Shown piece after piece: positions 2,935 to 52,008 of a DNA stretch of 64,000 nucleotides. Source of the DNA: a marine actinobacterium MedAcidi-G1. Its GTDB lineage: Bacteria; Actinomycetota; Acidimicrobiia; Acidimicrobiales; MedAcidi-G1. A program made the position numbers and the translations under genes. The stretch is taken from contig JUEM01000003.1 in the NCBI GenBank assembly GCA_000817085.1, forward strand, positions 1 to 64,000. Reading direction: 5' to 3'. The notes beneath the pieces were generated by a model, which ran no database searches, had not been told where the DNA came from, and worked only from the letters and a program-made list of their open reading frames with translations. The number at the start of each line of letters is the position of its first letter. Within the stretch, counting starts at the first letter, position 1.

Positions 2935-4754
2935 AATCTCAAATTCATGACGAAATTGATTTAGCAGAAAATGAACTAATCAACTTGCCAGCCAAACTTC
3001 TTGAACATTCACAGACACGTCCTAACGATGTGGCCATGCGACACAAAAGGCTAGGCATTTGGAAAGAATTTACATGGGAAGAGTATCTAAACAAAGTTGT
3101 ATCTGTTTCTTTAGGGTTTTATGAACTAGGAGTTCGAGAAGGCGACAAAGTTGCAATTCATTCAGAAAACAGACCTGAATGGGTTTTTGCAGATTTAGCT
3201 GCCCAAACGCTTGGGTCCGTGTCAGTTGGAATATATCCAACGAGTCCTGCATCAGAAGTCGAGTATCTTTTGAGCCATTCCGAGGCCAGTGTTCTAGTTG
3301 TTGAAGACGAAGAGCAACTTGATAAAGCATTAGATGCATGGGATCGGTTAGAAAAATTACAGAAAATTGTTGTTATTGATCCACGTGGCGTAAAGGAGCT
3401 TAATGATCCAAGGATCATAACTTTTGAAGATTTACTTGATTTAGGCGATTTGGTTGTAGGGAAAAGTTTTGAGGAAATGACTAAAACGATCACATCTTCT
3501 GAAACTGCAATAATCGTTTACACATCAGGTACAACAGGTCCCCCAAAAGGAGCGATGATAACTCATGAGAATTTGAGATTCGCTGCAATTACGTGGGGTC
3601 TTGTTTATGAATACAGGAAAAATGATGAGGTTTTATCGTATCTTCCCTTATGCCATGTGGCTGAGCGTGTCATCTCCGTTGCTAATGCGGTCTATCACGG
3701 TTATGTGGTGAATTTTGGTGAAGATACCAATTCGTTTACGGAAGATCTTCGTGAAGTGCAACCGACGTTTTTTTTAGGGGTTCCCCGTGTATGGGAAAAA
3801 ATGCTGGCTGCTGTTCAGATTCGATCAAATGATGCAACATGGTTGAAACGATCGTTGTTTAATTTTTGGATAAAGCAAGGCGGACTACTGTTACAAAGAC
3901 GTTTGAAAAACAAAAGTACTTTTATTGATTCGATATGGTTTGGAATTGGCTGGTTGTTTGTTTTTCGGTCACTGAAAAAAAGACTAGGAATGATGAGAGT
4001 TCGTGAAGCCCTATCTGGTGCGGCACCGATAGCTCCCCAAGTGCTTGAATTTTTGATGTCAGTCGGTGTGCCTGTTCGTGAAGGATACGGAATGACTGAA
4101 AACACAGCTGTTGCAACCATTGTTCCGGCGGATGAATTGTATTTAGGTTCTGTTGGGAAAGCACTACCTCTCTCTGAAGTTCGAATAGCTGAAGATGGAG
4201 AAATACTTACTCGCTCAGACGGAACATTTAAAGGTTATTTTAAAAATCTAGAAGCAACTAAGGAAACGATTATCGATGGGTGGTTGCATACGGGAGATGT
4301 AGGTCGTATAGATGAATTTGGGCATCTTTGGATTACAGATCGTAAAAAAGACATAATTATCACAGCAGGTGGAAAGAATCTTTCACCATCTGAAATAGAA
4401 AATCGTATAAAAATTTCTCCCTACGTAAGAGAAGCTATGGTTATCGGAGATAAGCGTAAATATCTAACGGCGCTGATTGGAATCGAAAGTGACACGGTAG
4501 GCGATTGGGCTACACGTAAAGGAATTCCATACACCACTTATGAAGATCTTTCATCAAAAGATGAAGTGAACGAATTAGTTTCCATGATTATAAATGATGC
4601 AAACAAAGATTTTGCTCAGGTGGAAACAGTTAAGTATTTTAAATTAATACCACTAGAACTTGACCACGAAGACGGTCAACTTACAGCTACACAAAAAGTA
4701 AAGAGAGCAGCTATTACCGAACAGTTTGCCGAATTGATCGAGAGTATGTATTAA
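2931..4754 (+). CDS. AMP-forming long-chain acyl-CoA synthetase (FadD/ACSL-like)
   Basis: Adenylate-forming enzyme that activates a carboxylic acid with ATP and CoA. The P-loop-like A3 motif is VYTSGTTGPPKGAMITHEN; later come the A5 motif YGMTENT, the A7 motif GWLHTGDVG, the A8 region DRKKDIIITAGGKN, and a candidate C-terminal catalytic lysine in ATQKVKR. Its length, 607 residues, matches the long-chain (FadD15/ACSL) branch. The start is the ATG at 2931 in an ATGA overlap with livG, with AGGAGAGG upstream. The stop overlaps livH by one base. Its position between the ATPase and permease genes of a Liv transporter suggests that the imported compound is an acid that is CoA-activated on entry. 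That is inference; the motifs do not fix chain length or aromatic preference. Confidence 0.9.
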   Translation: MKSQIHDEIDLAENELINLPAKLLEHSQTRPNDVAMRHKRLGIWKEFTWEEYLNKVVSVSLGFYELGVREGDKVAIHSENRPEWVFADLAAQTLGSVSVGIYPTSPASEVEYLLSHSEASVLVVEDEEQLDKALDAWDRLEKLQKIVVIDPRGVKELNDPRIITFEDLLDLGDLVVGKSFEEMTKTITSSETAIIVYTSGTTGPPKGAMITHENLRFAAITWGLVYEYRKNDEVLSYLPLCHVAERVISVANAVYHGYVVNFGEDTNSFTEDLREVQPTFFLGVPRVWEKMLAAVQIRSNDATWLKRSLFNFWIKQGGLLLQRRLKNKSTFIDSIWFGIGWLFVFRSLKKRLGMMRVREALSGAAPIAPQVLEFLMSVGVPVREGYGMTENTAVATIVPADELYLGSVGKALPLSEVRIAEDGEILTRSDGTFKGYFKNLEATKETIIDGWLHTGDVGRIDEFGHLWITDRKKDIIITAGGKNLSPSEIENRIKISPYVREAMVIGDKRKYLTALIGIESDTVGDWATRKGIPYTTYEDLSSKDEVNELVSMIINDANKDFAQVETVKYFKLIPLELDHEDGQLTATQKVKRAAITEQFAELIESMY

Positions 4755-40008: not shown

Positions 40009-41727
40009 TTAAAATTTTGGGAGACGCGGTCCAGCAATCCGCACACTATCTCGTCTACGCGTAATACCGTTTTCGTCGAGATGATTCAACAGGGGCATTG
40101 CATGTTTTCTGGTATTACCAGCAGCTTCTCTAAATTCTGAAACTGTGAAACCTTCAGGTTTAATTGATAGAAGTTTAGCGGCAAGTAAAGAAGCGGCTTT
40201 AATTGCGTCAGAGGAAAAAAAGACCCCGCTTTTTTCAATAATAATTCCTTTACGAACTAGTTCTCTAAGCTCAGAACGGTCCACTCCAACAGGATCGGGT
40301 GGTGCTAAAAGCGAATCCTGCAATTCTTTGATAAAAGGATGATTAGAAGTTTGATTTTTATGTATAGAAAGTTTTAATCTTCCACTATCTACAACCATGT
40401 CTTTCAATAGTGAAATAGTGGCTTTTTCATGTTCGTTTAACGAAGACAATTCGATTCCCGTGGGTCCAGCAGATTTGACTTTTTCTCTGACCGTTTCAAT
40501 TGTCAGCTGAAGAATTACTGGGTCGACAATCCAATTATCTATATCCGGTTCAATATTTTTACCTGTGAGTAGTTTTAAGTCTTCTGTATTAATCCATCCT
40601 CTTTCTTTGATGATCCGCTCTATTGAGCGGTCAGGCTTGGCTTTGGAAGCTTTTTCTTGAGGGTCTACATCAAGAACTTCCCCTCCTCCGATAGTTTCGT
40701 CACGTCCACTTTCTCGCAAAATAAATCGGTCACCAGGTAATAAAGGAAGTGGTTCTGGTAGGAATATTCTTATTGGTTCTTTCCCTCCAGGCAATATTGA
40801 GTTGGGGCCAAGAACCCTTAACTTAACTGGATATTCACCTGACCCGAAATAAGCTATGAAAGCACCCCTACGTGACACATTGTGATCAATCTCTTCTAAT
40901 ACTTGTAGAGAAGCATCTAACATTTTTGTTAAATGCCACTGTCCTGATTTGATAAGGACATTCCCTCGAGAAATATCTACATGTGAAACTCCAGCGATGT
41001 TTAAAGCACAACGACTACCGGGTGAAATCTCATTTTGCTCAAGATGATGAGCCTGGATTCCTCTAACTCGAACCTTTTCTTTCAAAGGCCAAACTTCTAG
41101 ATCGTCGTCAATTTTTAAACTTCCCCCTGTTAAAGTTCCAGTCACAACTGTTCCGGTTCCCTTTATTGAGAAAGAGCGGTCTATCCAAAGTCGTGGTCGA
41201 TGAACATTGTCTGGATCGGGTGAATCTTTTAAAAGTTCTGAAATTTCTTTCAACAATACGTCTATCCCAGTGCCATCTATTGAGTTTGTTTTAACTAGTG
41301 GAGCATTTTCCAGAAAGGTTCCTTTAACTTTTTCTTCAATTTCTAATAACGTGACTTCGATAAGGTCACTTTCCGCTTGATCGACTTTTGTTACAACAAT
41401 TACTCCATTTATAAATCCAAGCAATTCCAGGATTCTGAGATGTTCTTCAGATTGAGGTTTCCAACCTTCTGTTGCCGCAACTACAAATAGGCATGTTTGA
41501 ACACTTCCCACACCGGCCAGCATATTTTTCAGAAAACGAACATGACCTGGTACATCTACAATTGATAAAACAGATCCTGATGGCAAAGTTGTCGAAGCAA
41601 AACCTAAATCAATGGTTAAACCACGTGTTTGTTCTTCAATGAATCGATCGGGATCTGATCCGGTTAAAGATTTAACTAGAGTTGATTTTCCATGATCAAC
41701 ATGCCCTGCTGTAGCTACTATGTGCAT
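40009..41727 (-). CDS. selB: Selenocysteine-specific elongation factor SelB
   Basis: GTPase that brings Sec-tRNA(Sec) to UGA codons with a SECIS element. G-motifs: GHVDHGKST (G1), DVPGHVRF (G3) and TKVD (G4). SelB-type beta-barrel domains follow (WIDRSFSIKGTGTVVTGTLTGG), then C-terminal winged-helix repeats (about residues 350-572). Length is 572 residues. It lies 18 bases downstream of selA on the same strand. The presence of both implies that the genome encodes selenoproteins, although tRNA-Sec and selD are not in the window. Confidence 0.93.
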   Translation of the reverse strand: MHIVATAGHVDHGKSTLVKSLTGSDPDRFIEEQTRGLTIDLGFASTTLPSGSVLSIVDVPGHVRFLKNMLAGVGSVQTCLFVVAATEGWKPQSEEHLRILELLGFINGVIVVTKVDQAESDLIEVTLLEIEEKVKGTFLENAPLVKTNSIDGTGIDVLLKEISELLKDSPDPDNVHRPRLWIDRSFSIKGTGTVVTGTLTGGSLKIDDDLEVWPLKEKVRVRGIQAHHLEQNEISPGSRCALNIAGVSHVDISRGNVLIKSGQWHLTKMLDASLQVLEEIDHNVSRRGAFIAYFGSGEYPVKLRVLGPNSILPGGKEPIRIFLPEPLPLLPGDRFILRESGRDETIGGGEVLDVDPQEKASKAKPDRSIERIIKERGWINTEDLKLLTGKNIEPDIDNWIVDPVILQLTIETVREKVKSAGPTGIELSSLNEHEKATISLLKDMVVDSGRLKLSIHKNQTSNHPFIKELQDSLLAPPDPVGVDRSELRELVRKGIIIEKSGVFFSSDAIKAASLLAAKLLSIKPEGFTVSEFREAAGNTRKHAMPLLNHLDENGITRRRDSVRIAGPRLPKF

Positions 41728-41745
41728 AATTAAAATAGAAAATTT

Positions 41746-43035
41746 CTAATGAATTTTTTTGATCGCATCATCGATAAAAACGTCGTCGTTTGGGTGGACT
41801 GTCATTAAATCTATGAAGGTTTGATCATTATCCACTCGGCAGATAATGGGTGGTTTTTGTTGTCGGAAAAACTCAACATGGTTACCTGTGAGCTTTAAAC
41901 CTGCTGAAGGTATTTCAACTCCTGGCAAGGTCCCACCACCCGTAGTCGCAGTAGTTTCAGTTGCAAATTCGCTACTTATTTTATTTGCTCTTATTTTTAG
42001 TTCATCCAGGGAAGCGGTAGCCATTTCCCAAAAAGGGATTAAAGAAGCCCTACGTTCTAGATAAGAGATGGTGACATCCTGAAGTGCTGACATCGTAAGG
42101 CTTCCAGGTCGAACAGCTCTAGCCAGAGGATGTTTCGCACAAAGTTCTACCAGTTCTGCTTTGCCAGCAATTATGCCTGCTTGAGGGCCTCCGAATAGTT
42201 TATCTCCGGAAAATGTGACGATTTCTGCGCCTGATTCTAGACTTTGCCTTGCGGCCGGTTCACCAATAAGCCATTTCGGAGGACCATTTTCCAACCAAGG
42301 GCATGCAGAATCTATTAAACCCGACCCAATGTCGGCAACAAGAGGAACTCCTAAGTCGGTCATTTCAGAAATTTCAGTTGTTTCTGTGAAACCTACGATT
42401 CGATAATTCGACTGATGGACTTTTAAAACTAAAGAGATATCATTTTTTTTGATTGCTTTTTCGAAATCTTTACGGCGTGTTCGGTTTGTCGTACCCACTT
42501 CAACCAAGTGAGCACCTGATTGTTCGATAATTTCAGGTATTCTAAAGCCTCCGCCGATCTCGACCAGTTCACTTCTTGAAACTGCAACACCGCGTTCTTC
42601 AGCAAGGGCTGCAATTACCAAAAGAACTGCTGAAGCACAGTTATTTACAACCAATGCTGACTCAGCTCCACAAGCACGGGCGATTAGTTTTGAAGACCTG
42701 TCTTGTCTTGAGCCACGTTCTCCTGTTTCTAAATCCAACTCAAGGTTAGAGAACCTGAAATGTTGATTCTGCCTTTCACTTTTTATTGGAGCGCGACCCA
42801 TATTTGTGTGTAAAAGTACTCCAGTTGCATTAATCACGTCAGTTAATAGTGTTCGAGAAATAATTTCGCCAATTTTTCGAGCTTCTTCTAAAACATCATT
42901 TACGTTTGAGTTTTTCACTGCTTCACGAGCTGCATCTACTAGCAGTGGGTGAGGTAGATCCAAATCTGAGATAGCACGTGCTATTTGATCTATTGAAGGG
43001 GGTCTATTTAAAGGTGTTGAAAGTTTTTTTGACAT
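41746..43035 (-). CDS. selA: L-seryl-tRNA(Sec) selenium transferase SelA
   Basis: PLP enzyme that converts Ser-tRNA(Sec) to Sec-tRNA(Sec) using selenophosphate. Diagnostic segments are INATGVLLHTNMGRAP, LELDLETGERGSR, VVNNCASAVLLV, and the PLP lysine in FSGDKLFGGPQAGII (near residue 280). Length is 429 residues, slightly shorter than the Escherichia coli enzyme (463). It starts with ATG at 43035, divergent from the FxsA gene, and leads a two-gene operon with selB. Confidence 0.93.
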   Translation of the reverse strand: MSKKLSTPLNRPPSIDQIARAISDLDLPHPLLVDAAREAVKNSNVNDVLEEARKIGEIISRTLLTDVINATGVLLHTNMGRAPIKSERQNQHFRFSNLELDLETGERGSRQDRSSKLIARACGAESALVVNNCASAVLLVIAALAEERGVAVSRSELVEIGGGFRIPEIIEQSGAHLVEVGTTNRTRRKDFEKAIKKNDISLVLKVHQSNYRIVGFTETTEISEMTDLGVPLVADIGSGLIDSACPWLENGPPKWLIGEPAARQSLESGAEIVTFSGDKLFGGPQAGIIAGKAELVELCAKHPLARAVRPGSLTMSALQDVTISYLERRASLIPFWEMATASLDELKIRANKISSEFATETTATTGGGTLPGVEIPSAGLKLTGNHVEFFRQQKPPIICRVDNDQTFIDLMTVHPNDDVFIDDAIKKIH

Positions 43036-43630: not shown

Positions 43631-46615
43631 GTGATCCATACTTTATTAGACTTAGTGACTAAGCAGAAAATTTTTGGCATGACGAAATCAAACTTTGGTA
43701 CCCATTCAGACTTAAATAATGCTGTATCGATTACAGATCCCGGATCAGTACCTTATGTGGATTTAAGACCAGAGAACTTCAGCCAAATTATCTCTTCTAG
43801 TAAGCAGCTATCTGAAGGTTCTGATTGGATAGTGCAAACACCAGCAGGCCTTTTTGTCCATGGATATAAACAGGTCCGCTCGATACTTCGCGATCAAAGG
43901 TGGATATCGGTACTTTCGGGAATTTCCATGCTGGATTCTCTCGATTCAACAGCATCGGATTTAAATGTTTTGTTCGAGCGAGCTAGGCGTTCAATTACGG
44001 ATATTGAAATTCCAGCTAATTTCAACATTAGACCAAATGTATTATCAGTTGAAGGAGATGATCATAAGCGACTCAGAAAGTTAGTTAATTCTTCATTCAC
44101 TTCTAAAAGTGCAGACCGCTTGCGTCCTTTTATGAGAGATCATGCAAGTGAACTGATGAATTCTTTAGTTAGAAATTCAACAAGTGAAATTGTTCAAGAA
44201 TTTTGTCGGCCATATCCAATTCCAATTATTTGTAGGTTATTGGGATCAGACGATAAAGACTGGGAGTTGTTTGATTATTGGGCTGAAGTCATTTTCTCTG
44301 CCTTAGACGCCGACACTGATTCCGTAATAAGTCGACTTGATGAAATATCAGCAGCACAGAAAGATCTTGATAATTATATAAAAAGTCTTATTCATGATCG
44401 TTCAATTGAGCCCAAAGATGATTTGATTTCAGAACTCATTCAGAATCAGGTCGACGGCGACGCACTTAGCTCTGATGAATTAATAGCAATGGTAGAAGCT
44501 CTTTTATTGGCGGGTACGGACACAACGCGAAATCAACTTGGAGCAACAATTGCAGTACTGGCGGATCACCCTGAGCAGTATTCAATTTTAAGAGAAAGAA
44601 GGGAGTTAATCCCTGCCGCAATTGAAGAGTCGCTCAGATACATAGGGGCAGTTCGAACTACTGCCCGTTTAGCAGTTGAAGACATAGATTTTGAAGGAAA
44701 ATTTTTCCCTGCTGGTAGCACAGTCTTGCTAGGACTTCATGCTGCAAGTCTTGGTGAAACCGAAGATGATGATGGTTATGTTTTCAATCTTCTACGTGAA
44801 CGGGAATGTCCACATATGGCATTTGGTAGTGGGGCTCACCATTGTCTTGGCGCATTTTTGGCACGTGCAGAATTACAAGAAGCATTAAGTGTTTTTGTTG
44901 ACAGAGTTCCTTCTATTGATTTGGTAAGTCCGGTCGAGTGGAAACCATTATCTATGGGAATTTGGGGACCGAGTCGTCTCGAAATTACATTTAAAGGTTC
45001 TTCTGGTAATAAGATTTACAAAGCCGGAACAAATCGAGAAAGTGAATCAGTTTTTGTTGCGGGTCGAGTGTCGGATATAAAAGAGGATCTACTGATTCAG
45101 GAGTCTTCAAAAAAGCGTTCTGAAATCCAAAAATCTATACCGCACTTGATTCAGCGTCCGAAATTTCCACCGATTAAGAGGTTGTTGACAACCGTTTTCA
45201 ATTTCAGTAAAGCAATAATACTTTGGAAATTAATTGACTCACGTAAAGAAGATAAAACAAAAAAGACTTTTTTATACAGAAGAATAAGGCAAGCTGCTGA
45301 ACGGTTAGGTCCTACCTATGTCAAACTTGCACAATTAATTTCCGCAGCGGAAGGAATATTTCCAGAACCTCTAATAGCTGAGTGTAAAAAGTGTCGTGAT
45401 GAAGTGCGGCCAGAATCTTGGGTCACTGTCAGAAAAACTATAGAGAACGAATTAGGACCAATAGACAAAATTTTTAGTTTTATTAATCCTATTCCCATAG
45501 CAGCAGCATCAATAGCCCAAGTGCATTCTGCAAAACTCCTTGATGGTTCTTCTGTGGTTATTAAGGTTCAAAGGAAAAAAATTCAAGATCAAGTTAAAAG
45601 TGATCTAAAAGTAATGGCATGGTTAGCTCCGAAATTTGTCGGTCGTATACCGATTGCAGCATTAACAAATCCTCCAGCTTTAGTTGAATTGTTTGCGGAA
45701 ACAATTTGTGAAGAATTAGATTTTCAGCTTGAAGTATCAAATCTTTTTGAAATTGAAAGAGCCTTGAAATCAAATCCTAAAAACACTTGGGAATTGCCCA
45801 TTCCAAATTTAGATTATGTCACTTCAAAAATTATTGTGATGAGCAGAGTTCAGGGTTTTTCTCTTGGTGATGCAAATGAAATGGAAATGAACGCAGACCG
45901 AGTTTCTGCTGTTTTTCGTCAAATGGTTGATGGTTTGCTAGAGGGAGCTGTAATTCATGGGATTTTTCATGGTGATTTTCATGCTGGCAATGTATTTTTA
46001 GACAGAGATGGTCAAATCGGTTTAGTAGATTTTGGAATTACCGGGAGATTAAATGGTGATCGTCGAATTGCGTTTTTACGTTATGTAGTGGGTTTAATGA
46101 CTGGTGATGTTGAAGCACAGATTATGGGGTTGAGAGATCTTGGAGCTTTCCCATCTGATACTGACGTCCAAACCCTAATTAAAGATTTTCAATTAGAACG
46201 TGACGACTTTGATCCTCTTGAAATGAGCGAAGAAGAATTTGTAGAAGAGATTCAAGTAATCGTGAGAGATCTTTTGGCACATGGCGCAAGAATTCCTAAA
46301 GAATTGATGCTTTTTGTAAAGAACTTTGCTTACCTTTCATCAGTAATTCAAAATTTAAGTCCTGAAATGGATTTGTTGGCAGAGTTTGAAAAAATCTCAT
46401 CAGGTTTTTTTACCAGAAATGGGCTTCGTGTCGCCACTGAAGTTGGTTTTTCAGTTACGAGTGATGACATTTCAGACCAGTCATTTAGAAGGGCAGCAGG
46501 ACTGCGCGATAGCGAGAAGACTCTTACTTGGGATGCTTTACAAAAACGTAGAAATGAAGCCATTCAGCGAATACCCGTTAAATCAGTGGTCGATGAATTA
46601 CAAGGAAAAATTTAA
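43631..46615 (+). CDS. Cytochrome P450-UbiB/ABC1 atypical kinase fusion
   Basis: A 994-residue single frame. Residues about 30-460 are a cytochrome P450: I-helix AGTDTTR (294-300), ExxR (Glu333-Arg336) and heme loop AFGSGAHHCLG with Cys405. Residues about 545-880 are an ABC1/UbiB/ADCK kinase-like domain: KLAQ (Lys565-Gln568, where UbiB has KxGQ), AAASIAQVH, IKVQR (Lys645), HGDFHAGN (Asp782, Asn787) and DFG (Asp800). The linker (about 460-545) is basic; the tail (880-994) is helical. Start GTG 43631 or ATG 43679; neither has a strong ribosome site. Photolyase follows after 5 bases. It may oxidise a lipid or isoprenoid quinone-like molecule under control of the kinase domain; that is inference. 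Both domain calls are strong. Confidence 0.88.
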   Translation: MIHTLLDLVTKQKIFGMTKSNFGTHSDLNNAVSITDPGSVPYVDLRPENFSQIISSSKQLSEGSDWIVQTPAGLFVHGYKQVRSILRDQRWISVLSGISMLDSLDSTASDLNVLFERARRSITDIEIPANFNIRPNVLSVEGDDHKRLRKLVNSSFTSKSADRLRPFMRDHASELMNSLVRNSTSEIVQEFCRPYPIPIICRLLGSDDKDWELFDYWAEVIFSALDADTDSVISRLDEISAAQKDLDNYIKSLIHDRSIEPKDDLISELIQNQVDGDALSSDELIAMVEALLLAGTDTTRNQLGATIAVLADHPEQYSILRERRELIPAAIEESLRYIGAVRTTARLAVEDIDFEGKFFPAGSTVLLGLHAASLGETEDDDGYVFNLLRERECPHMAFGSGAHHCLGAFLARAELQEALSVFVDRVPSIDLVSPVEWKPLSMGIWGPSRLEITFKGSSGNKIYKAGTNRESESVFVAGRVSDIKEDLLIQESSKKRSEIQKSIPHLIQRPKFPPIKRLLTTVFNFSKAIILWKLIDSRKEDKTKKTFLYRRIRQAAERLGPTYVKLAQLISAAEGIFPEPLIAECKKCRDEVRPESWVTVRKTIENELGPIDKIFSFINPIPIAAASIAQVHSAKLLDGSSVVIKVQRKKIQDQVKSDLKVMAWLAPKFVGRIPIAALTNPPALVELFAETICEELDFQLEVSNLFEIERALKSNPKNTWELPIPNLDYVTSKIIVMSRVQGFSLGDANEMEMNADRVSAVFRQMVDGLLEGAVIHGIFHGDFHAGNVFLDRDGQIGLVDFGITGRLNGDRRIAFLRYVVGLMTGDVEAQIMGLRDLGAFPSDTDVQTLIKDFQLERDDFDPLEMSEEEFVEEIQVIVRDLLAHGARIPKELMLFVKNFAYLSSVIQNLSPEMDLLAEFEKISSGFFTRNGLRVATEVGFSVTSDDISDQSFRRAAGLRDSEKTLTWDALQKRRNEAIQRIPVKSVVDELQGKI

Positions 46616-46620
46616 CTCAC

Positions 46621-47970
46621 ATGGATTCTCCAAACATAATAGTTTTTACAAGAGATCTAAGAGTTAGAGATAATCCCGCACTCGATGCAGCTGTTTCGAT
46701 GCCCGGCCCCACAGTTGCACTTTTTGTTTTTGATGAACTCATTACAGATAAAAAATCCCCCAGTCCTAACCGTTTTCAATTTCTTATTGATTCTTTACGT
46801 GATCTGGATGCCTCATTAAAAAAAATTGGCTCACAGTTGATAATACGTCAAGGAAAATGGGTAGATGAGATAACAAAAGTAGCTCTGGAAACCCAATCAA
46901 AACAGATCCATGTTTCTAATGATTTCAGTCTTTTGGCGAAAACTCGTTTAGAAGCATTGATTGAGAGAGGTGAATCAACAGGGTTTAAAATCAGCGTTCA
47001 TCCAGGTGTTTCTCTCGTAGAGCCGGGTCATTTAACGCCAGCTGATGGGAGAGAATACAAAGTTTTTACACCGTACTATCGCCGTTGGCTAGAGACCTCT
47101 TGGCGAGAACCCGTGAAAACACCAAAATTTATCCAAAGCATTGATACAGATGGCGACCATATAGAAATTCTTGAAAAGTACGATCAAAAAAATCTTTCAC
47201 CTTTTTTGTTAAAAGGAGGGGAAACAGAAGGGATTTCGCGTTTAAACGATTGGATGACCAAAGAAATATCAGATTATGAAAAAGGTCGAGATGATATAGA
47301 GGGTGATAGAACATCACGTTTATCCCCCTATCTCCATTTTGGGTGTCTATCTCCACTAGAGGTAGCGTTGCAAGCTTTGGAATTTGGTGGCGATGCTTTT
47401 GTTAGACAATTATGTTGGCGTGATTTTTATCTACAAATTTTGCATCATCGTCCAGACTCTTCAAGAAGCGATTACCGTGACCGAAAATATGATTGGAATA
47501 AAAATCCGGAAGCCTTCAGACTCTGGAAAGAAGGTAAAACCGGGTTTCCAATAGTCGATGCAGGAATGCGCCAATTACTAGCTGAAGGCTTTATGCACAA
47601 CAGAGTAAGAATGATCGTCGCCTCTTTTCTGACAAAAGACCTGCATCTAGATTGGAGGATTGGGGCGGAGCATTTCATGAACTATTTGATTGATGGAGAC
47701 GTTGCTTCAAACCAACTGAATTGGCAATGGGTTGCTGGAACTGGAACCGATAGCAACCCTCACCGAATTTTCAATCCTGTTCGTCAAAGTGAAAGATTTG
47801 ATGCTGATGGAAAATATATTCATAAGTGGGTTCCAGAATTAAAAGATATTTTAGGTAATGATGTCCATAATCCTGATAGAAAATCGCGATTAGAAGCTAG
47901 TTACCCAGAAGCAATGTTGGACCACCATGAAGCAATTGCGATATACAAATCTAAGTATTCTGGTAAATAG
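46621..47970 (+). CDS. phrB: Deoxyribodipyrimidine photolyase (cryptochrome/photolyase family)
   Basis: Light-dependent DNA repair flavoenzyme, 449 residues. It has an N-terminal Rossmann antenna domain (IIVFTRDLRVRDNPAL) and a C-terminal FAD domain with TSRLSPYLHFGCLSP, RQLCWRDFYLQILHHRP, and the substrate-site region NWQWVAGTGTDSNPHRIFNP. This is a class I CPD photolyase pattern. It starts 5 bases after the P450-UbiB fusion gene, with no clear ribosome site, so translation may depend on the upstream gene. A PPOX-family gene follows after 21 bases. Confidence 0.94.
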   Translation: MDSPNIIVFTRDLRVRDNPALDAAVSMPGPTVALFVFDELITDKKSPSPNRFQFLIDSLRDLDASLKKIGSQLIIRQGKWVDEITKVALETQSKQIHVSNDFSLLAKTRLEALIERGESTGFKISVHPGVSLVEPGHLTPADGREYKVFTPYYRRWLETSWREPVKTPKFIQSIDTDGDHIEILEKYDQKNLSPFLLKGGETEGISRLNDWMTKEISDYEKGRDDIEGDRTSRLSPYLHFGCLSPLEVALQALEFGGDAFVRQLCWRDFYLQILHHRPDSSRSDYRDRKYDWNKNPEAFRLWKEGKTGFPIVDAGMRQLLAEGFMHNRVRMIVASFLTKDLHLDWRIGAEHFMNYLIDGDVASNQLNWQWVAGTGTDSNPHRIFNPVRQSERFDADGKYIHKWVPELKDILGNDVHNPDRKSRLEASYPEAMLDHHEAIAIYKSKYSGK

Positions 47971-47991: not shown

Positions 47992-48402
47992 ATGGCAGTT
48001 TTATCACCGCAAGAAACAACTGCAGCTCTGAACGAATTTGTTAGTGAAAAACATCTAGGAATTTTAACTCTGGTCAGGAAAGACGGAAGACCACATTCGA
48101 CCCCTGTTGGTTTCATGTGGGACGATGAAAATAAGGTTGTAAAAATAATCACATGGTCTGGAAGCTTAAAAACCCGTCTGCTTAAGGAAGAAACTCTTGT
48201 TGGAACAATTTCGCAAGTAGATGGCGGTCGGTGGGTAACTTTTGAAGGTATCTGTTCATCTACTGGCGATTCTGAAATTTGTTCTGACGCTGTGAAACGT
48301 TACTCTTTGCGCTATTCGGAACCAAAAGATCGTGGCGATGAACGAAGGACCATAACCATGACCGTTGACCGGATACTTTCTAGTGCTGGTTTAGCTCCTT
48401 AG
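47992..48402 (+). CDS. PPOX-class flavin/F420-binding split-barrel protein
   Basis: A 136-residue split beta-barrel of the pyridoxamine-phosphate-oxidase-like (PPOX) group. The segment LGILTLVRKDGRPHSTPVGFMWDD is the typical start, with WSGSLKTRLLKEETLVGTISQVDGGRWVTFEG in the middle. In actinobacteria many such proteins bind F420 and reduce enoates. An AAAGG ribosome site precedes the ATG. The substrate is unknown; the neighbours suggest a function connected with flavin enzymes and light repair. Confidence 0.8.
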   Translation: MAVLSPQETTAALNEFVSEKHLGILTLVRKDGRPHSTPVGFMWDDENKVVKIITWSGSLKTRLLKEETLVGTISQVDGGRWVTFEGICSSTGDSEICSDAVKRYSLRYSEPKDRGDERRTITMTVDRILSSAGLAP

Positions 48403-48406
48403 AAGT

Positions 48407-49639
48407 TTAATCTTCCAAACAAATTGTGGCAGCTCTTCTGCCTGATACTAGAGCGCCTTGAATCGATGGCGTATCTCTATGATCGCCACAAATATAAATT
48501 CCTTCACTAATTTTTATATTTTTCCTGAAAGGGTCGCCGGGCTTTAAATCAGGTTGTGCGTGTTCAATCGAATATGTTTTTATATGTTCCCAACTGTCAA
48601 CACTGTCACCAAACCATTTTTTCATTTGTATTAGTACATCTTCTATGGATTCGGGTTTTATTATTTCTGGGATGGCTGCCGCAATCAGAGCTTTACCACT
48701 TTTTGAGTAGGAAGGCGCAATGTTAGTCATAATTGCAACGTTTAGTGCGGGACCATTTTTTTCACCATTAAGAAGAATGGCTTTTGAAGAACTAGGTGCT
48801 TGGGGAGCAGAAAAATAAACGCAAGAGACAGACCGAGAAAGTGGGCTCTTCTGACCAAGTAATTTAGCTGTTGCAGGTCCTTCGGTAGCAATTATCAAGT
48901 TTGAAGGCAAAAAGGATTCACCCGATTCGAGTATTACTTTTTTACCTTCTACTTTTTCAACATTGCAATTTAAACGAACGCTGTTTTCATTTACTTGTTT
49001 AAAAAGCTGTTCACTAATTGCGCCCATTCCACGAGCTGGAACGGCAGCTTCACCAATAAATAACATTTTGAGGATCCAAAAACACAGTCTGGTGGAACCA
49101 CTCAGCGAAGGATCAAGTTGAATTCCTCCAATTAATGGTTTAAAAAAGCTATTAATCGCTTTAGGTGTAAAACCTAAATCCTCAAAAGTTTCTAAAATCT
49201 TTTTATCGTCTTTTTGTTTTAGAGGAATTTTTTTTCTACCGATTAGTGAATTTCTTAATTTTAAAAGTTTTATTTTGTCTTGTATCCCAATCGTTTTGGT
49301 TAAGGCTGTAGACACGATCGAAGAAATATTTCTAAATGGATCACCAACCTTAGAAAAACGATCATTAGAGAAAATAGTTGCGCCTGATTCAAATGGCTTA
49401 AGTTCCAACAAGGAAAGATCCAAATGTTCCGGTAATTCTGGATATGCAGTCAAAAGAACTTGGAAACCACGATCGAGTAGAAAATCTTTATATTGATCAG
49501 TTCTGACTCTACCGCCCACCCCATCAGATTTTTCTAACAGTAAAACCTCTTTACCTGATTGCGATAAAATCTTTGCTGCCGTTAAACCAGCTATACCTGC
49601 CCCAACTATTACAACTTCTGGAGAGGAAAGATCTGGCAA
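48407..49639 (-). CDS. FAD-dependent oxidoreductase (amine oxidase/phytoene desaturase-like)
   Basis: A 410-residue flavoprotein. The N-terminal dinucleotide-binding motif is [17 protein letters not shown], with the second beta strand ending [16 protein letters not shown], as in protoporphyrinogen oxidase, monoamine oxidase and carotenoid desaturase relatives. [21 protein letters not shown] near the end forms the FAD-binding C-terminal motif. It ends 4 bases from the convergent PPOX gene and is 8 bases from the DUF1295 gene on its own strand. The substrate is unknown; a lipid or isoprenoid desaturase role is plausible. Confidence 0.85.
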
Positions 49640-49647
49640 ATTATTTC

Positions 49648-50535
49648 CTATGAACTGAAAGAAGAAGGTCTTCTTGGTGGTTTCAGAATTAGGACAGGTG
49701 TTGATTCTTTATAAGTTTGAAACTCAACGTCATCACCCCAGCGTTTCTTCGCCGCAGAGTTAAGCATTGGTATGCCACTTATTTTTGTTAGAAGAACAAA
49801 GACAAAAATTGGCGAAATTAAACTCACATACTGCCAGCCTGATAATGCAGGGAGTGCTACAAGTGATACGCCAATCCATAAAATAATTTCGCCAAAGTAG
49901 TTTGGATGTTGAGACCAAGCCCACAAACCGGTGTTAATGAAAGAATTTTGATTTTTGCTATCTAGTTTAAATCTTCGTTTCTGTTCATCAGAAATTATCT
50001 CAATTACGAAGCCTATTAACCAAATAATTACGCCTATTGTTCCAACCCAACCGAAACCTTTTTTAGAACTTGAAGTAATTGCTGACAACGCAGCCGACGT
50101 CGTAAGAACAACCCAAAGACCTTGAATTGTCCAAGTCATCAAAAACCAAGTGAAATTATATTTCATCAAATCAAATCGAGCATCATGACCCACTGCTTGA
50201 ACACGGGCAAATAAGAAAGCACCCAAACGTAAACCCCAAAAGCAAACCATTAATCCCAGCAATACAGATCTTGTATCGATTTCAGGTACTGCAATAAGTG
50301 CGACGACTGTGATTGTTAAATAAGTAGCAGAACCTACAAGGTCGAAAAATCTTTCAGAATGAAAAAACCAAGAAGGTATGAAACAAAGCCATTGGATCAA
50401 AAAAGCAAGAATGCTGCAAAGAGCAAAAAGTTTTATTCCAGAAGCATCTACTCCGTTATCACTACAAGAAACGACCACAAAAAAAGCGACACAAAGCGAA
50501 GCAACAATAGCGATTGATGAATGTTTCGTTGTCAT
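49648..50535 (-). CDS. DUF1295 (steroid 5-alpha-reductase-like) membrane protein
   Basis: A 295-residue integral membrane protein with about seven helices. The C-terminal region ([27 protein letters not shown]) is the ICMT/steroid-reductase-like signature of the DUF1295 family, with the NADPH-binding HPNYFGE core. It sits between the FAD oxidoreductase and the DUF2867 NAD-epimerase gene, which it abuts with no gap. The combination is characteristic of photolyase-associated lipid genes. The reduced substrate is unknown. Confidence 0.87.
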
Positions 50536-52008
50536 TTAACTAGGTCCATGTTCCGCTGTGTGAATAATTTTTGAAAGCATTCTGTTAAAAATTAGTGAAT
50601 GTGGGATTAATAAGGCAAACCAATAAAGTCTTCCAATTACTCCTCTTGGAACAAAATGTGCACGTTGACTAACTAAGCAACCATTGCCATTATCTGACAC
50701 ACTCCATTCAAGCCACGCGTGGCCAGGTAGAAGCATTTCGGCCCGTAAAAGTAATGAGTCAGAATCAACTTTTACCACAGTAAAAAAGTCTACTGGATCA
50801 CCAACACGTAGTTCGGAAGGGTGCCGTCTTCCTCTTCTTAGACCAACTCCACCGGCTAGTTTGTCAATAAACCCACGAACAGCCCATAACCAATCGAAGG
50901 CAAACCAACCGGTGTCACCACCAATAGTTTTAATTGTTGACATGACTTTTTTGCCTGTAACTAACGATTTCTGTTCTCTAGAGTCAATTAAAACACGACC
51001 CCCAGACCACTCTGGGTCACTAAGTTCAGGCAACTCCGCTATTTGGCTTTTCACAGAATTTGACCATCGGGTAGGAATCTGGAGATTTTGCACTCTAGTT
51101 AATGCTCTACCAATTGAATTATGCAAATTTTCAGCATCATGATTAAGCACAGCAGAGATTGGGTTGTTACTTACTACGACATCAGAAGTGAGAGAATCTA
51201 TAAGAGAACGGGCAAGACGAATAGGTAGCGGACTGGTCAGATTTACCCAATGAGATGATAGTCGAGGAGTTAATACGGGCACTGGAATAATTATTCGTTT
51301 TTTTAAGCCAGCAACTTGGGCATAGGTATGCATCATTTCTCTGTAAGTTAAAATATCTGGCCCGCCGACATCAATAATTTTCCCTAGCGTTTTATCATTA
51401 TCTAATACAGACACTAAATAGAACAAAATGTCGCTTATTGCTACAGGTTGACAACGTGTCTGGGTAACCCATTTGGGCACCACCATTATTGGAAGTACTT
51501 CAACTAATGACCGGAGCATCTCGAAAGAAGCACTCCCAGAGCCAATAATTATCGCTGCTCGAAGTTCGGTGACAGGGGTTGAACCATTTGACAAAATTTT
51601 TCCAACTTTGTGCCGGCTAGTTAAATGTGGAGAATGATTTTTTTCATCTTCCCCAAGACCACCTAAATAAACAATTTGTTTAATTTTGTTTATATCCGCA
51701 GCTTTAGAAAAAATTTCAGCCATTGATGATTCTAAATCTTCAAAGTTAGAAGAAGCTGCCATTGAGTGGACCAGGTAATATGCTTTTTCCACACCATTAA
51801 GTGCTTCAATTACCTGGTCCTTAAGGCTTAAATCAGCTTTATAAACTTCAACTTTTGATCGCCAGGATCTGTCGTCTAATGCTTCAGAGTTCCTAACAAT
51901 GCAGCGAACGTTGTATCCGGCTTCTAGAAGTTGAGGTACTAGACGACCACCGACGTACCCGGTCGCACCAGTAACCGCAATTATTCCAGTTTTATTTGCA
52001 TTTTTCAT
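50536..52008 (-). CDS. NAD(P)-binding protein with C-terminal DUF2867 domain
   Basis: A 490-residue two-domain protein. The N-terminal extended-SDR/NmrA-like domain (AVTGATGYVGGRLVPQLLEAG) carries YLVHSMA and VYLGGLGEDEKN. From about residue 350 a DUF2867 domain begins (GWFAFDWLWAVRGFIDKLAGG, RRGRRHPSELRVGDPVDFF), ending in PRGVIGRLYWFALLIPHSLIF. It is the first gene of the minus-strand set with DUF1295 and the FAD oxidoreductase. The domain order is standard for this family of unknown function. Confidence 0.87.
   Translation of the reverse strand: MKNANKTGIIAVTGATGYVGGRLVPQLLEAGYNVRCIVRNSEALDDRSWRSKVEVYKADLSLKDQVIEALNGVEKAYYLVHSMAASSNFEDLESSMAEIFSKAADINKIKQIVYLGGLGEDEKNHSPHLTSRHKVGKILSNGSTPVTELRAAIIIGSGSASFEMLRSLVEVLPIMVVPKWVTQTRCQPVAISDILFYLVSVLDNDKTLGKIIDVGGPDILTYREMMHTYAQVAGLKKRIIIPVPVLTPRLSSHWVNLTSPLPIRLARSLIDSLTSDVVVSNNPISAVLNHDAENLHNSIGRALTRVQNLQIPTRWSNSVKSQIAELPELSDPEWSGGRVLIDSREQKSLVTGKKVMSTIKTIGGDTGWFAFDWLWAVRGFIDKLAGGVGLRRGRRHPSELRVGDPVDFFTVVKVDSDSLLLRAEMLLPGHAWLEWSVSDNGNGCLVSQRAHFVPRGVIGRLYWFALLIPHSLIFNRMLSKIIHTAEHGPS

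Follow-up and report, generated by a model that had tools for sequence, protein, structure and literature searches.

A putative light-stress oxygenase: a cytochrome P450–ABC1 fusion gene in uncultured, mostly marine actinobacteria

How ABC1/UbiB proteins use ATP is a long-standing question, and one made harder to approach by substrates that are buried in the membrane and partners that are loosely held. Within the 64,000 nucleotides of actinobacterial DNA analyzed here (the window), one gene appears to join an ABC1-type domain to a cytochrome P450. An ABC1 domain fixed to a measurable oxygenase would allow the effects of ATP-site mutations to be read directly as substrate turnover. The locus raises two questions: whether the two halves truly form one protein and, if so, what that protein might do. 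The architecture is apparently undescribed; the author of an earlier note on this DNA knew of no characterized system with it, and we found no description of a P450–ABC1 fusion in the open-licence literature.

The fused gene and its two halves

Reading both strands bore out the open frame reported in the earlier note: 994 codons and a stop run without interruption on the forward strand (Table 1), and the opposite strand, read in register, contains many stops. The GTG that opens the frame is doubtful as its start. Because homologues (in the comparison with L010 and L011) align from the ATG at 43679 onward, and because L010, a relative with 78% identity, carries stop codons upstream in the matched stretch, this ATG is probably the true start and the GTG a wrong one.

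Table 1. Features of the fusion gene and its downstream neighbors, in window positions
Feature	Position	Strand	Details
P450–ABC1 fusion gene	43631..46615	+	994 codons from GTG; probable start ATG 43679, giving 978 aa
Cytochrome P450 domain	43721..44995	+	Residues ~31-455; Pfam p450, PDB match 4z5p, Foldseek P450s
I-helix AGTDTTR (oxygen activation)	44510..44530	+	Residues 294-300; AGTDTT in all fusion homologues shown
Heme-binding loop FGSGAHHCLG with Cys405	44822..44851	+	Cys in all fusion homologues shown
Variable junction, coding and in frame	44996..45115	+	Residues ~456-495; least conserved, 14-26% identity bins in alignment
ABC1 (UbiB-like atypical kinase/ATPase) domain with N-terminal extension	45116..46576	+	Residues ~496-982; Pfam, separate homologues, MABP-1
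A-rich loop AAASIAQVH	45500..45526	+	Residues 624-632
ATP-site Lys645	45563..45565	+	From alignment
Catalytic-loop HGDFHAGN	45968..45991	+	Residues 780-787; in all fusions reaching that point
Metal-binding DFG	46028..46036	+	Residues 800-802; DYG in most members of one fusion sub-clade
DNA photolyase	46621..47970	+	Pfam FAD_binding_7 and DNA_photolyase; 5 nt past fusion stop
PNPOx-fold flavin/F420-type protein	47992..48402	+	21 nt past photolyase
FAD-dependent amine-oxidase-family oxidoreductase	48407..49639	-	Neighborhood reading
DUF1295 (steroid 5-alpha-reductase-like membrane protein)	49648..50535	-	Neighborhood reading
NmrA/SDR-DUF2867 protein	50536..52008	-	Neighborhood reading

Both domains had been described as complete, and both gave Pfam matches well over the cut-off. 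In the P450 half, PF00067 is matched at residues 135-422 (4.5e-24; 85.5 bits against a cut-off of 22.8), and the heme cysteine loop, the ExxR region (here EESLR) and the acid-alcohol pair of the I-helix are all present and conserved across homologues, as expected of a member of the P450 family. The best sequence match in the PDB is 4z5p. A Foldseek search with the AlphaFold model likewise assigned the half to the P450 fold, returning AurH, BioI, OleP and CYP109 among other P450s with TM-scores of ~0.8-0.9 by target length; the nearest structures include the polyketide and macrolide P450s AurH, OleP, MycG and EryF. Overall, the P450 half resembles soluble bacterial P450s whose substrates are fatty acyl, macrolide and steroid compounds.

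In the ABC1 half, PF03109 is matched at residues 588-828 (4e-50; 170.7 bits against a cut-off of 22.9), and the A-rich loop, the ATP-site lysine, HGDxHxGN and D(F/Y)G are conserved among homologues. Lys645 is likely the counterpart of K157 in the ATP site of MABP-1 (PMC6208485). The P450 and ABC1 motifs listed in the earlier note all fall at the residues it gave, but the segment where KxGQ would be expected has the letters KLAQ; this KxAQ form occupies the position in all fusions shown and also in some separate ABC1 proteins. The proposed UbiB/ABC1 identity accordingly divides: the ABC1-type assignment stands, whereas a strict UbiB assignment does not, given the KxAQ segment, a score of 253.2 bits for the UbiB equivalog TIGR01982 (cut-off 487.55) and the lack of any C-terminal transmembrane helix (over the last 120 residues, 19-residue hydropathy peaks at 1.02). 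COQ8/ADCK3 and Escherichia coli UbiB share the ABC1 kinase-like fold and motifs but differ from the fusion in having membrane helices and KxGQ.

The nearest solved relatives, MABP-1/Rv3197 (PDB 5yjz, E=4.7e-19) and MSMEG_1954 (7cy2), belong, as the ABC1 half appears to, to a family of soluble actinobacterial ABC1 ATPases; they differ in having no P450, and the fusion reaches only 65.5 bits against the cut-off of 800 for the NCBIfam MABP-1 family (NF050082). ABC1-type ATPases bind hydrophobic compounds or act on them. MABP-1 binds erythromycin and hydrolyzes ATP, an activity that its ligand does not stimulate (PMC6208485). COQ8B, together with ATP, raises CoQ output about five-fold, and its phosphorylation of COQ3 has been reported (PMC7615680). 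The latter report, together with the intact kinase-like motifs, could be taken to mean that the ABC1 half acts as a protein kinase, with the P450 or a partner as the target that it controls by phosphorylation. We hold this to be improbable, as the features usual in kinases give way here to the A-rich nucleotide loop and the KxAQ segment that typify ABC1 proteins, and the activity reported for MABP-1 is that of an ATPase.

Since metagenome assemblies make up the bulk of the genomes here, an assembly or gene-calling artefact that fuses two genes had to be weighed. The frame across the junction was confirmed in independent assemblies, as other public records carry the joined gene; metagenome bins are among them, as is AG-414-N20, whose name style suggests a single-cell genome and in which the frame reads through to residue 596. 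The earlier note would have been undone by a stop or frameshift between the domains, yet the only copy that looks split, in G188, is interrupted by a stretch of N in its scaffold. Purifying selection on both domains is strong, with pairwise dN/dS of ~0.04-0.06 in most, and the best-resolved, comparisons and of 0.09-0.14 in comparisons involving a cut-short ABC1; selection also acts across the linker (0.14-0.24). With the fusion carried by three families besides, we reject an artefact, which is refuted in practice and has essentially no chance of being correct. The AlphaFold model of the 978-aa protein (pTM 0.82, mean pLDDT 83.5) further suggests, from a two-domain pTM of this size, that the P450 and ABC1 domains adopt a defined mutual arrangement.

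Distribution and origin of the fusion

In the window's own family (f1; genera g1, g2 and g4), 14 of the 48 genomes gave the fusion gene in a full-length search; an even sample of the order then added 12 genomes of family f27 and 14 of family f59. The total of 40 genomes, in nine genera and three families of Acidimicrobiales, includes a few copies cut by contig ends or, in G188, by the N-run. The carriers are uncultured, mostly marine actinobacteria. The earlier note would also have been refuted had every relative kept P450 and ABC1 as independent genes, which is thus not the case in the order. Outside it, no P450–ABC1 fusion passed the threshold among 395 genomes sampled from the class or 396 from the phylum, and a search of 72,556 plasmids yielded none that spans 80% of the query; at these thresholds distant fusions could escape. 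One genome of genus g32 (G331) has two fusion copies, on C27 and C6, at different positions in the tree.

In each domain tree, the fusions form one fully supported group with the separate genes outside, and the P450 and ABC1 trees broadly match, with the same main clades. Because each domain is monophyletic and the trees agree in this way, the fusion probably arose once. We regard a single origin as likely but short of proof, since these are quick trees with long branches flagged between groups. Sequences from genus g2 of f1 nest within an f59 clade in both trees, indicating that the joined gene passed between families as a unit, and no case of the halves apart turned up within the fusion clade.

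The fusion occupies the place of a separate ABC1 gene. Elsewhere in the order, ABC1 is a gene of its own (AarF/UbiB-type; e.g., L022 and L027) whose product is ~45% identical to the ABC1 half and collinear with it over residues 496-980, sharing the N-terminal extension, the absence of a clear C-terminal transmembrane helix and, in some members, KxAQ. Unlike the fusion, it stands alone: neither a P450 nor a light-associated gene adjoined it at any of 12 loci. No separate ABC1 was detected at E <= 1e-48 in 24 fusion genomes, nor a second ABC1 in the window's own genome even at E <= 0.001, so that in the fusion genomes searched the ABC1 half appears to be the only recognizable copy. A separate, unfused P450 of the order (e.g., L083 and L085), 40-46% identical to that of the fusion, adjoins it in the tree and co-occurs with the fusion in f59, where all nine genomes searched keep it (43-46% identical). 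The simplest account is that a duplicate of this separate P450 was joined ahead of the lineage's single ABC1.

Being the sole recognizable copy, and collinear with a widespread separate gene, the ABC1 half might carry out the cell's general ABC1 job on its own, with fusion serving only the co-expression or co-localization of an unrelated P450. Several observations make this unlikely. The halves were always found joined within the fusion clade and move jointly between families, and their domain arrangement is predicted with confidence (pTM 0.82). Relatives in genera g3 and g6 have no ABC1 match at E <= 1e-48, which suggests that the ABC1 function is dispensable. Moreover, unrelated ABC1–P450 gene pairs occur elsewhere.

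Three such pairs were found: on the Mycobacterium marinum plasmid pMMRN (L115:7584-10239), where the ABC1 and P450 genes overlap by 14 nt behind a TetR-type regulator, and in two relatives within the order (G049:C50 and G039:C42). As in the fusion, ABC1 and P450 are adjacent on one strand; unlike it, they remain two genes, ABC1 comes first, and the P450s are just 29-33% identical to that of the fusion. From this low identity, ABC1 and P450 genes probably came together more than once. P450 pairs occurred at 2 of 17 paralogous ABC1 loci, a biased rate because the pairs had been spotted before the loci were fetched. A 1,100-aa ABC1 frame in G041 (L097) was considered as a second fusion and set aside, as it has no second Pfam domain. 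Another ABC1 fusion does occur in a P450 pair: L117:1194-3473 (+) encodes ABC1 and DUF3159 in a single 759-aa frame that overlaps a downstream P450 frame (3331-4698).

A light-stress neighborhood

The gene immediately downstream of the fusion is a photolyase by Pfam, as the earlier note had read it, and with 5 nt between them the two are probably co-transcribed. That note had also asked whether other fusions share photolyase and FAD-oxidoreductase neighbors; these proved common to related loci, and in the f59 genera g108, g142 and g175 the gene immediately upstream of the fusion encodes a homologue of the window's FAD oxidoreductase. We defined a light set consisting of photolyase, FAD oxidoreductase, DUF1295, SDR/DUF2867 and a CarH/LitR-like regulator, the last seen in five genera. 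At least one of these genes adjoins 8 of 20 fusion loci, spread over 6 of the 9 genera, compared with 0 of 20 separate-gene loci. Light neighbors were absent in g2, g32, g64 and one of the two g4 neighborhoods read; in g32 and g64, other SDR-type genes lie downstream of the fusion. In g32 (L069-L072), judging by eye, a 133-aa cyclic-nucleotide-binding-like protein is encoded upstream of the fusion, next to genes that resemble methylmalonyl-CoA mutase. In the window itself, positions 40009-43035 (-) hold two adjacent genes resembling, by a look at their sequences, the selenocysteine factors SelB and SelA.

The regulator directly follows the fusion in g108, g142 and g175, succeeded by SDR/DUF2867 and/or DUF1295, and also follows it in g157 (L075) and g4 (L065, and G020 by positions). 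In two genera (L073 and L075), the fusion and regulator frames overlap by 4 nt, which suggests that they share one transcript. The domain composition is that of CarH/LitR proteins (B12-binding_2 and B12-binding, preceded by HTH_17 rather than the MerR profile), and the sequence matches CarH structures in the PDB. Trp117, Glu127-His128 and His165 are invariant in five sequences, in agreement with the W-x9-EH motif and with the axial histidine; we take these residues to be cobalamin contacts. No CarH/LitR-like regulator was detectable in the window's own genome, which is 84% complete.

A similar region is known around LitR of Pseudomonas mendocina, comprising photolyase, SDR, FAD oxidoreductase and the lipid enzyme UfaM (PMC9758184). 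The likeness extends to the B12-domain regulator and places the gene set among known light-response sets, of which the fusion would be a new member. The fusion loci differ in the HTH_17 N-terminus of the regulator, in the fusion itself and in having no UfaM that we could see. Judged by gene content, the fusion appears to belong to a light-stress neighborhood, and its context is new.

Proposed function and competing readings

We propose that the fusion is a light-stress oxygenase with a built-in substrate-handling ABC1 module, a reading to which we assign a probability of roughly 0.4. The lipid- or quinone-modifying oxygenase with ATP-driven presentation put forward in the earlier note holds up as the most economical interpretation, although its substrate and mechanism are what we infer. 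Against it stand the genera without light neighbors, the missing CarH/LitR-like regulator in the window's own genome and the ligand-insensitive ATPase of MABP-1. The ABC1 half would bind ATP, and its cycle would draw a very hydrophobic substrate from the membrane and deliver it to the covalently attached P450 for hydroxylation. Uptake and presentation in this ATP-dependent form are proposed because the half resembles MABP-1 and COQ8B and shows no membrane helix; extraction from the membrane is suggested by analogy, given that a C-terminal transmembrane segment is absent. The hydroxylated product may then be oxidized by one of the short-chain dehydrogenases encoded nearby. No redox partner for the P450 was identified in the fusion neighborhood; a P450 of this soluble bacterial type would draw its electrons from a ferredoxin and reductase encoded elsewhere.

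The candidate substrate would be either an isoprenoid quinone, for example menaquinone, or a different lipid of the membrane. The quinone of actinobacteria is menaquinone rather than ubiquinone. CYP128A1 of Mycobacterium tuberculosis, a P450 linked to menaquinone-9 (PMC7404182), makes menaquinone a candidate by offering a bacterial precedent; CYP128A1 is not fused and is likened here by its described role, not by sequence. The purpose would be remodeling of membrane lipids or quinones during photo-oxidative stress, with expression switched on by light in lineages that have the B12 regulator. The light-gene neighborhood also hints that the photo-oxidative response of these uncultured, mostly marine actinobacteria has a branch that modifies lipids or quinones. 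More tentatively, the fusion could represent a new enzyme class that links an ABC1/UbiB-type ATPase covalently with a monooxygenase, so that isoprenoid quinone or membrane lipid is extracted with ATP and passed straight to the P450 under the control of light. A coupled enzyme of this kind, if real, would allow the role of ABC1 proteins, which is in dispute, to be assayed directly.

The likeness to MABP-1 also admits a role in detoxification or antibiotic handling, with the ABC1 half binding a macrolide-like or other foreign hydrophobic compound and the P450 oxidizing it. The nearest solved ABC1 relative is, after all, a soluble erythromycin-binding ATPase (PMC6208485), and AurH, OleP, MycG and EryF are among the nearest P450 structures. 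This role nevertheless strikes us as distinctly unlikely: the MABP-1 family score lies far below its cut-off, the neighbors are genes of light stress rather than of transport or resistance, and a stress or housekeeping role in lipid metabolism better fits the only recognizable ABC1 of small genomes.

A light-induced carotenoid or retinal oxygenase would account for the CarH/LitR-like regulator and photolyase neighbors, and 8 of the 19 fusion genomes searched carry microbial rhodopsin, in one case in two pieces, compared with 0 of 6 same-family genomes that lack the fusion, a small sample of incomplete genomes. Phytoene synthase, however, is missing from 24 of the 25 genomes searched, the window's own included, which indicates that most make no carotenoid. 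An endogenous carotenoid substrate is therefore unlikely, and a carotenoid or retinal oxygenase of any kind seems very improbable, though imported retinal or carotenoid may serve as substrate. Several genomes encode a microbial rhodopsin without phytoene synthase (e.g., G000:C43:15329-15964), so their retinal may be imported.
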